Part shown: piece after piece, positions 53,883 through 56,465 of the stretch
Position numbering within the stretch: position 1 is the stretch's first letter
How the letters are laid out: every line of letters begins with the position of its first letter
From: Spirochaetae bacterium HGW-Spirochaetae-1
GTDB taxonomy: Bacteria > Spirochaetota > UBA4802 > UBA5550
Direction of reading: 5' to 3'
Assembly: GCA_002839375.1 (NCBI GenBank)
Contig: PGXY01000003.1
Location: 591,863-655,862, forward strand
DNA length: 64,000 bases
Notes under the pieces: model-generated
The model's input: the letters and a program-made list of their open reading frames with translations, nothing else
The model's database searches: none
What the model was told of the DNA's origin: nothing
Program-made: the position numbers and the translations under genes

Positions 53883-53966
53883 TCACATTACATCGATGGC
53901 GTTGACGGTGCAGGCATCCACACAATTGCCGCAGTTGGTACATCGGTCATAAATTACATGGGTCAT
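53883..53966 (-). CDS. 27-aa mini-ferredoxin with one [4Fe-4S] motif
   Basis: A 27-codon ORF, ending nine bases before the DUF389 start. CTNCGNCVDACT supplies all four cysteines of a [4Fe-4S] motif (9, 12, 15, 19). AAAGGA lies about 9 nt upstream of the ATG. It looks like the first half of a two-cluster bacterial ferredoxin cut short by a stop. Whether it is functional, a pseudogene remnant, or a translational leader is open. Confidence 0.6.
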   Translation of the reverse strand: MTHVIYDRCTNCGNCVDACTVNAIDVM

Positions 53967-54353: not shown

Positions 54354-55181
54354 TCATGATATGTCAGCCACTTTTTTAACCCTGTCCATGATCTGACGGA
54401 AGACCTCGTCCTGATCGTCGATTTTAAGAGTCAGGGCTCCGCGCGGACAGGCACTCACGCACCGGCCGCACCCCTTACAGGATTCGAGGACTCTGGCCCT
54501 GCCGTTTTCCTCCCGGATCATGGACGCAAAACATTGGGCGGCGCATATACCACAGCCGTTGCAACGCTCTTCATCCACTATGACCGATATGCCGGGAAGC
54601 CGGCGATATGCCTTGTCCAGGTTCGGGCCGGGACGCTTCATGTCGGTGCGGTACATGCAGCAGCAGTCGTCGCAGAAACAGATGAACATAAGGTGCTTGA
54701 AATCCGGGAGGCCGAAGGCCACAACGTCGATCCAGACATGGGCGATATTGGCGATGAGGCCCGCATCGGCGGCCCTGCGCACGTGGGCCTTCGCCTCCCC
54801 GATTGTCGCGCGCCTGCCATGGGAGGGATGTATACGTTCCGCGCCCCTGCCCAGGGCCATACACCCGATATCGGCGGGATGATTGGCACACCGGAATTTT
54901 GCCCTGCACACGCACTCGTCGAATATAACCACGTGGCCTGCCTGGGCAATGAAGCGCTCCACAGCCTCGGTGGGCACCACCACGTTTTCCGGGGAGGGCA
55001 GTTTCACTCCTATCGGGATAGCGGTAATCTCATTATGAGGGTAGCGGAAAAAGGGATTTATGATATGCTTCAGTACAGGATAATCGCTCCATCGTTTTCC
55101 CCTGGTCATGAGGGGCCAGGTCATGTTCGTGGCGAACCTGGCCATCCGTTTTGTGGGACCGTATTTGAACATCTTAATCAT
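54354..55181 (-). CDS. Cysteine-rich double [4Fe-4S] protein, paralogue A
   Basis: A 275-residue protein of unknown function. Two ferredoxin motifs lie at the C terminus (Cys 207/210/213/217 and 235/238/241/245). Upstream, an extra set of conserved cysteines, C90, C92, C98, C107 in a CxCR...NHP block and C168, C170, C173-C175 in CFCxxCCC, is spaced exactly as in paralogue B. They may bind a further metal cluster. No membrane helix is clear. GGAGGCTCCC precedes the ATG. It is the last gene of a three-gene operon. Confidence 0.75.
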   Translation of the reverse strand: MIKMFKYGPTKRMARFATNMTWPLMTRGKRWSDYPVLKHIINPFFRYPHNEITAIPIGVKLPSPENVVVPTEAVERFIAQAGHVVIFDECVCRAKFRCANHPADIGCMALGRGAERIHPSHGRRATIGEAKAHVRRAADAGLIANIAHVWIDVVAFGLPDFKHLMFICFCDDCCCMYRTDMKRPGPNLDKAYRRLPGISVIVDEERCNGCGICAAQCFASMIREENGRARVLESCKGCGRCVSACPRGALTLKIDDQDEVFRQIMDRVKKVADIS

Positions 55182-55211
55182 GGGAGCCTCCTGTATATCC
55201 GTGTTGCCGCT

Positions 55212-55595
55212 TCAATTCCTGTCGAAAAGAATATCGAAAAATCCCCGGTTTAACACGCGGGGGATGGCAATGAAATAAATCACGCCGATCAACAGGTCCG
55301 CCGCTCCCAGAAGAGCCGGGACGAAATTACCGCTGGAGCATGCCAGCCACGAGAAGAGAAAAAAGGCTGCGACCCTGGACATGCCGTCCCAGAAGACCAC
55401 GGTGGCCCGCCGCTCCAGGTCCCTCGATGAAAAGATCAGTATTGTTCCGAGGAAAACAAGAAACAGGGCCGGAAGCAGGAGCCAGAAGGGGCTTCCCGGG
55501 GCCTCGATGCCCGCCAGCGATATAGAGCCCGGTATGACAAAGGCAATTCCCGTAGTGATGTTAATTATCCCGGTAAGTGCAACAAATTTTTTCAT
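55212..55595 (-). CDS. Small four-helix membrane protein between the Fe-S paralogues
   Basis: A 127-residue integral membrane protein with four hydrophobic helices (about 5-28, 37-56, 70-93, 97-115). No family is recognised. A Cys in SWLACSSGN lies in helix three. AGGAG lies upstream of the ATG. It sits 30-45 bp from both paralogous Fe-S genes and could be their membrane partner, e.g. an electron acceptor or anchor, which is inference. Confidence 0.7.
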   Translation of the reverse strand: MKKFVALTGIINITTGIAFVIPGSISLAGIEAPGSPFWLLLPALFLVFLGTILIFSSRDLERRATVVFWDGMSRVAAFFLFSWLACSSGNFVPALLGAADLLIGVIYFIAIPRVLNRGFFDILFDRN

Positions 55596-55640
55596 GGCCT
55601 ATCTCCTGTATATATTAGATTGATTTGGTGTTATCATATT

Positions 55641-56465
55641 TTATCGGTAATTGATGATTCTGCTTATACGGCCGGTTAATTCCATTACAGCCTCGTCAAC
55701 GGACTCGATCGAAGCGATAACAGCATTCTCGGGACATAAGCTGGCGCACCGGCCGCAACCTCTGCATTTCCCGGGATCGATCACCGCCCCTTCATCCGTA
55801 ATCTTGATGGCACCGGAGAAGCATTCGCGGGCACAGTCGCCGCACCGGGTACATTGTTTCAGGTCGGCGGTCATGACGAGACCGCGCAATTTTACGATGG
55901 ACGATTCCATCTCCGGGGTCATGAATTTCCTGTTGTTCATGATGGTGCAGCAGCAGGAACAGCAGAAGCATATGGTGAGGAGCCTGCCCCGGTCCTTCAC
56001 TCCCCAGAGAAAATTGTCCGGTTTGAAGCGGCCGGCGAATGGGATGAGGCCGTTTTCCACGCACGCCCGGGCGTGGGCGATGGTCTCCTCAACCGAGGTA
56101 TGCCGGCAGACGGCTGGGTCAATTTCAGCAGCGCCATCACCGAGCATCACACATGCCAGCTCGACGGGATGATTTTCGCACCTGTTGCCGTCGCGGCAGG
56201 TGCACCTGGCAATAATGGCCCGATGAGATGATTCGCGGATCAGTTTTTCCAGTATTATCGAGGGCAGGTAGCTCGATCTGTCCCCGGATATCTGCCTGTT
56301 GATCGGGATGTAGGTTATGTTGAAATTCTTTCCGCTGAGCAGTGGGACCACGAGACGCTTCACGACTGTACCGATCACCGGCCATCCGGTGGCCTTCACG
56401 ATTCCCCCTGACAGAGGAAAGGTTTTCGCGAGAATTTTCAGCCACAATTGGGGCCTTCGGGACAT
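55641..56465 (-). CDS. Cysteine-rich double [4Fe-4S] protein, paralogue B
   Basis: A 274-residue paralogue of the protein at 54354. Cys 88, 90, 96, 105 (CTCR block, followed by NHP) and 166, 168, 171, 172, 173 (CFCxxCCC, here with an extra Cys169), and ferredoxin clusters at 205/208/211/215 and 234/237/240/244 repeat A's spacing with an offset of -2 (last cluster -1). This exact match over about 130 residues argues for a functional metal site. It is first in the operon. AAGGA precedes the ATG. Confidence 0.77.
   Translation of the reverse strand: MSRRPQLWLKILAKTFPLSGGIVKATGWPVIGTVVKRLVVPLLSGKNFNITYIPINRQISGDRSSYLPSIILEKLIRESSHRAIIARCTCRDGNRCENHPVELACVMLGDGAAEIDPAVCRHTSVEETIAHARACVENGLIPFAGRFKPDNFLWGVKDRGRLLTICFCCSCCCTIMNNRKFMTPEMESSIVKLRGLVMTADLKQCTRCGDCARECFSGAIKITDEGAVIDPGKCRGCGRCASLCPENAVIASIESVDEAVMELTGRISRIINYR

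Follow-up and report, generated by a model that had tools for sequence, protein, structure and literature searches.

We analysed a 64,000-nucleotide stretch of the genome of Spirochaetae bacterium HGW-Spirochaetae-1 (hereafter the window), in which a first-pass annotation had placed two cysteine-rich ferredoxin-like proteins, A and B, on either side of a small membrane protein, X. The three open reading frames lie on the minus strand at the coordinates it gave and form an operon transcribed in the order B-X-A, with spacers of about 45 nt between B and X and about 30 nt between X and A. The neighbouring genes are unrelated and encode DUF389, radical SAM and AsmA proteins. The features of the operon, in order of transcription, are as follows.

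55641..56465, minus strand: protein B, 274 aa, first gene of the operon; basic hydrophobic N-terminus, putative IsrA-type Cys6 domain and 2[4Fe-4S] ferredoxin
55884..56324, minus strand: Cys6-type domain of B, residues about 48-194, with C88xC90...C96...C105 and C166xC168CxCCC; the conserved core is C88, C90, C105, C166, C168 and C173, corresponding to 90, 92, 107, 168, 170 and 175 in A numbering
55713..55877, minus strand: 2[4Fe-4S] ferredoxin domain of B, residues about 197-251
55212..55595, minus strand: protein X, 127 aa, small hydrophobic protein with four predicted helices
54354..55181, minus strand: protein A, 275 aa, last gene of the operon; basic hydrophobic N-terminus, putative IsrA-type Cys6 domain and 2[4Fe-4S] ferredoxin
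54594..55034, minus strand: Cys6-type domain of A, residues about 50-196; invariant C90, C92, C107, C168, C170, C175, H133 and D152, accessory C98, C173 and C174
54423..54587, minus strand: 2[4Fe-4S] ferredoxin domain of A, residues about 199-253

Paralogy and cysteine conservation in A and B

The C-terminal 55 or so residues of both A and B form an ordinary 2[4Fe-4S] ferredoxin (PF00037, two stretches in each protein) with two CxxCxxCxxxC motifs, the cysteines of which span 207-245 in A and 205-244 in B. This part resembles known 2[4Fe-4S] ferredoxin domains (Pfam Fer4, Fer4_10; HdrA, MvhB), whereas the N-terminal 195 residues differ from them. Assignment to the EFR1 family of ferredoxins (NF038196) failed, with scores of 40.3 and 32.7 bits against an NCBIfam cut-off of 75 and the ferredoxin part alone aligned. 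The first 48 residues carry a net charge of +9 in A and +8 in B.

Judged by their sequences, A and B are paralogues (31% identity, E 8e-40), and their equal cysteine spacing is therefore not a chance pattern. The nine upstream cysteines of A fall exactly at 90, 92, 98, 107, 168, 170, 173, 174 and 175, and the same nine occur two residues earlier in B, as had been annotated; B has three further upstream cysteines (120, 135 and 169) that the annotation did not mention. The alignment is gap-free, again as proposed, but it extends over 189 residues (A35-223 with B33-221) instead of about 130.

Comparison of 34 A and 21 B sequences from public genomes revealed six cysteines (C90, C92, C107, C168, C170 and C175 in A numbering) that do not vary in any of the 55 proteins, and H133 and D152 are likewise invariant throughout the set. 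This conservation supports the suggestion that a metal or Fe-S site lies outside the ferredoxin domain. The nine cysteines do not behave as the single unit first envisaged, since C98, C173 and C174 are lost together in 15 of the 34 A proteins; all three are present in the other 19 and no mixed case was found. B retains their counterparts, with one exception at C98, and has an extra cysteine at A position 171, so that the accessory set comprises three cysteines in A and four in B. A and B form two deep clades in the tree, on which the accessory set needs three to four changes while the starred branches force only one. We regard the all-or-none pattern as suggestive because its Fisher value (5e-10) ignores the kinship of the sequences. 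The distribution of the cysteines points to a six-cysteine core site accompanied by what would be a dispensable second site.

Relationship of the N-terminal domain to IsrA

The N-terminal domain of A and B had no match in Pfam, NCBIfam or PHROGs, nor had X, and the only Pfam matches of A and B are Fer4-type. Searching PDB sequences with A and B returned matches to the ferredoxin part alone. Built from 55 natural sequences, the AlphaFold2 model of A is confident (pLDDT 88.6, pTM 0.87), and a Foldseek search of solved structures with this model again matched the ferredoxin part only, leaving the N-terminal 195 residues without a counterpart. A literature search on the CxCR and CCC motifs gave no match, and a search combining HypA/HypB with ferredoxin led to the papers on the isr operon. 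IsrA is reportedly a proteogenomic candidate only; later biochemistry of IsrA was not found in the literature search, and to our knowledge no biochemistry exists for the Cys6 domain.

The isr operon of Acetobacterium wieringae encodes IsrA (901 aa), two HypA proteins, one HypB and a 350-aa 4Fe-4S protein (PMC10134865). IsrA, a putative isoprene reductase of clade 9 of the FAD oxidoreductases, is induced by isoprene, and some of its homologues neighbour oleate hydratase and TetR genes (PMC10134865). IsrA and the isr ferredoxin align with each other over their first 270 aa, a region that aligns with no known domain; within it six cysteines of IsrA, including CxC motifs at Cys180/182 and Cys254/256, were proposed from a model to bind a cluster V that perhaps contains nickel (PMC10134865).

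For comparison with A and B we used spirochaete IsrA-type proteins, recognised by their architecture (about 900 aa; Fer4, PF14691 and PF07992) beside HypA and HypB, in place of A. wieringae IsrA itself. The N-terminal domain of A and B aligned to that of these proteins with an hhalign probability of 96.4 (E 1e-9, 125 columns) and with the cysteines in register, and hmmsearch gave 32 and 27 bits. The two CxC motifs are 74 residues apart in the IsrA-type proteins, the same spacing as in published IsrA, and A and B likewise have six cysteines, of which four make up two CxC motifs separated by about 74-78 residues. Because the profiles match with their cysteines in register, the N-terminal domain of A and B is most likely the cluster V domain of IsrA.

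IsrA and A/B share the homologous cysteine domain, its two CxC motifs and its six invariant cysteines, and in both a ferredoxin-type cluster follows directly. IsrA differs in its length of 901 aa, in carrying FAD/NAD(P)H and PF14691 domains and in adjoining HypA and HypB, whereas A and B are about 275 aa long, lack a flavin domain, are paired and are linked to a membrane protein. A Pfam search detected no FAD/NAD(P)H reductase module (PF07992 and PF14691) on either chain, and no HypA or HypB gene lies beside the window operon. By its published description the ferredoxin of the isr operon (VUZ27135.1, 350 aa; PMC10134865) has a 4Fe-4S domain after its cysteine domain, as do the paralogues of 300-380 aa found here; it has a longer N-terminus than A and B, and no membrane partner has been reported for it.

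A search of the window's own genome with the N-domain profile identified about 15 further proteins, many of 300-480 aa with a longer N-terminus. The region is thus not unlike everything known, since it is homologous to the proposed Cys6 domain of IsrA and recurs within the genome. The trio appears to be a real and conserved membrane form of a metal-site family that was itself proposed only recently; it is apparently undescribed, and it is not a categorically new domain.

Homologues of IsrA occur in Spirochaetes, including one in the window's genome, where a 903-aa IsrA-like oxidoreductase lies between HypA and a HypB-sized gene (L159:9358-13240, contig C2); this operon is a candidate for a diene or unsaturated-compound reductase in an uncultured spirochaete. 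Related spirochaetes carry tandem IsrA-like genes (891 and 907 aa) between HypB and HypA (L149:3890-10511 and L161:8237-14940). Elsewhere in the window's genome, genes for an acyl-CoA dehydrogenase, EtfB and EtfA are followed by that of a 330-aa Cys6-domain ferredoxin (L026:5974-10141), an arrangement that may tie the Cys6 domain to ETF electron flow, and a GMC-type FAD oxidoreductase gene adjoins another Cys6-domain protein of 301 aa (L012:6771-9034).

The predicted membrane partner and genomic distribution

A pattern scan of 84,980 species genomes identified at least 35 A loci, a lower bound, in Spirochaetota, Smithellaceae/Syntrophaceae, Desulfobacteraceae and their relatives, other deltaproteobacterial MAGs and two Bacillota, one of them a member of the Syntrophomonadaceae. 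B-X-A recurs in Spirochaetota and in deltaproteobacterial genomes; we rejected the idea that the pairing or the trio is specific to spirochaetes, A loci being present in deltaproteobacterial and Bacillota genomes as well. The three genes are contiguous, as B-X-A or A-X-B, in about 19 of 36 A loci, with many of the remaining loci on cut contigs, and the A-X-B order occurs in three deltaproteobacterial loci. Neighbours in several homologue loci include genes for acyl-CoA dehydrogenase, MaoC/FAS1-DH hydratase, thiolase, AMP-binding ligase, a ChsH2-like OB-fold protein and TetR.

The four helices of X are predicted by AlphaFold2 from 3 sequences at low confidence (pLDDT 62). The window-type X has homologues in the same position, flanked by A and B, in G003 (L094), Smithella (L142 and L143) and a deltaproteobacterial MAG (L147). 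Elsewhere the slot is occupied by an unrelated protein with two to three transmembrane segments ending in KTxLFGFTWWLPLKxGI, and distant homology between the two types was not supported (hhalign probability 0.3). The alternative type is weakly similar to TMEM254 (PF14934), its best score of 20.2 bits (E 7.5e-4) lying under the Pfam gathering threshold of 23; the X of the window gives no match to this family. The complete genome of Desulfosarcina widdelii encodes the alternative type fused to the C-terminus of B (L135:6810-7937). Exchange of X for an unrelated membrane protein together with its fusion to B is the pattern expected of an anchor, and the B-X-A order in many genomes and the B-X fusion of D. 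widdelii lend support to the membrane complex that had been proposed.

A gene for a DUF6989 (PF22497) membrane protein directly adjoins A in four loci (L135:8871-9572, L138:8867-9538, L127 and L147), and its product is possibly a further partner of A.

Possible function of the trio

On balance we lean towards a membrane-anchored redox enzyme that has A and B as its two subunits, is based on the cluster V-type domain of IsrA and likely acts on an unsaturated lipophilic or acyl-CoA-derived compound. X and the basic hydrophobic N-termini would keep an A-B heterodimer at the membrane; low-potential electrons would flow, in one direction or the other, between the ferredoxin domains and the Cys6 cluster, and the substrate would be handled at that cluster. 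The most likely chemistry would be reduction of, or electron exchange with, such a compound, because homologues adjoin acyl-CoA dehydrogenases, hydratases, thiolases, acyl-CoA ligases and TetR regulators. This lipid and acyl-CoA link is drawn from homologues, mainly at A-only loci, since the window operon itself sits among unrelated genes. By analogy the trio is probably a membrane-bound version of the chemistry proposed for IsrA. Against this reading, some A and B genes occur without X, the membrane role of the N-termini and of X is a prediction, and the all-or-none accessory pattern rests on few independent changes (three to four on the tree, at least one forced).

The main rival, which we find rather doubtful, is that A-X-B is purely an electron relay, in which the Cys6 site would be an extra transfer cluster between soluble dehydrogenases (acyl-CoA dehydrogenase/ETF or hydrogenase) and the quinone pool, comparable to EtfD or ETF-QO with different proteins. 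The 2[4Fe-4S] domains and the membrane anchor would suit such a role, several A genes adjoin acyl-CoA dehydrogenases, a paralogue in the window's genome directly follows acyl-CoA dehydrogenase, EtfB and EtfA, and the Syntrophomonadaceae copy has an NqrB/RnfD-type gene nearby. However, there is no conserved quinone- or heme-binding subunit, six-cysteine sites are unusual for simple relays, the invariance of H133 and D152 suggests something beyond a wire, and the parallel with IsrA would point to a catalytic site. The IsrA parallel also bears on a structural zinc or storage site, or a role for A and B as assembly factors for another Fe-S enzyme, which we consider very unlikely. CxC motifs are found also in Zn and Fe-S carrier proteins, and the many paralogues in the window's genome would suit client-specific chaperones, but redox catalysis is favoured both by the IsrA-type proteins, in which the domain is fused to an NfnB-like FAD/NAD(P)H reductase, and by the induction of IsrA by isoprene (PMC10134865).

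A nickel-dependent form of A/B seems unlikely to us; in it, HypA and HypB would supply the Cys6 site with Ni, and the enzyme would hydrogenate unactivated C=C bonds in membrane lipids, isoprenoids or hydrocarbons. This reading draws on the nickel proposed for cluster V and the oleate hydratase and TetR genes that adjoin some IsrA homologues (PMC10134865), and on the presence of HypA and HypB beside IsrA homologues and beside deep B-clade members in Smithella and Syntrophomonadaceae, the latter in L123, L142 and L143 only. The window operon, however, has neither gene nearby, and HypA was not found in G027, G036 and G043, all of which carry A- or B-family proteins, although some of these genomes are incomplete. 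Whether HypA tracks A/B among relatives proved uninformative, because NiFe-hydrogenases, which would account for HypA, occur in nearly all of them. We give similarly little credence to the broader proposal of an undescribed class of membrane-bound two-subunit enzymes in syntrophic, sulfate-reducing and fermentative anaerobes, in which a Cys6 cluster, possibly Ni-Fe-S, would hydrogenate or dehydrogenate unactivated carbon-carbon bonds of lipids or hydrocarbons and the nine-cysteine forms would hold a second, losable accessory cluster.

For IsrA, the Cys6 site has been put forward as a metal centre for the reduction of plain C=C bonds, and in A and B small relatives of it are encoded in a conserved membrane operon, which would let the Cys6 cofactor be tested without the large flavoprotein. 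The distribution of the operon suggests that such chemistry may be spread among Spirochaetota that are uncultured and among anaerobes that degrade fatty acids, live syntrophically or reduce sulfate. Many A proteins have naturally lost exactly three cysteines, which offers a built-in experiment separating core from accessory ligands.

Directly upstream of a DUF389 gene, the window contains a 27-codon ORF (53883-53966, minus strand), MTHVIYDRCTNCGNCVDACTVNAIDVM, encoding a single CxxCxxCxxxC half-ferredoxin. A relative (L172) has a complete 2[4Fe-4S] ferredoxin with a similar start, also near DUF389, and for this reason the short ORF looks like a remnant left by truncation or a micropeptide with one cluster.
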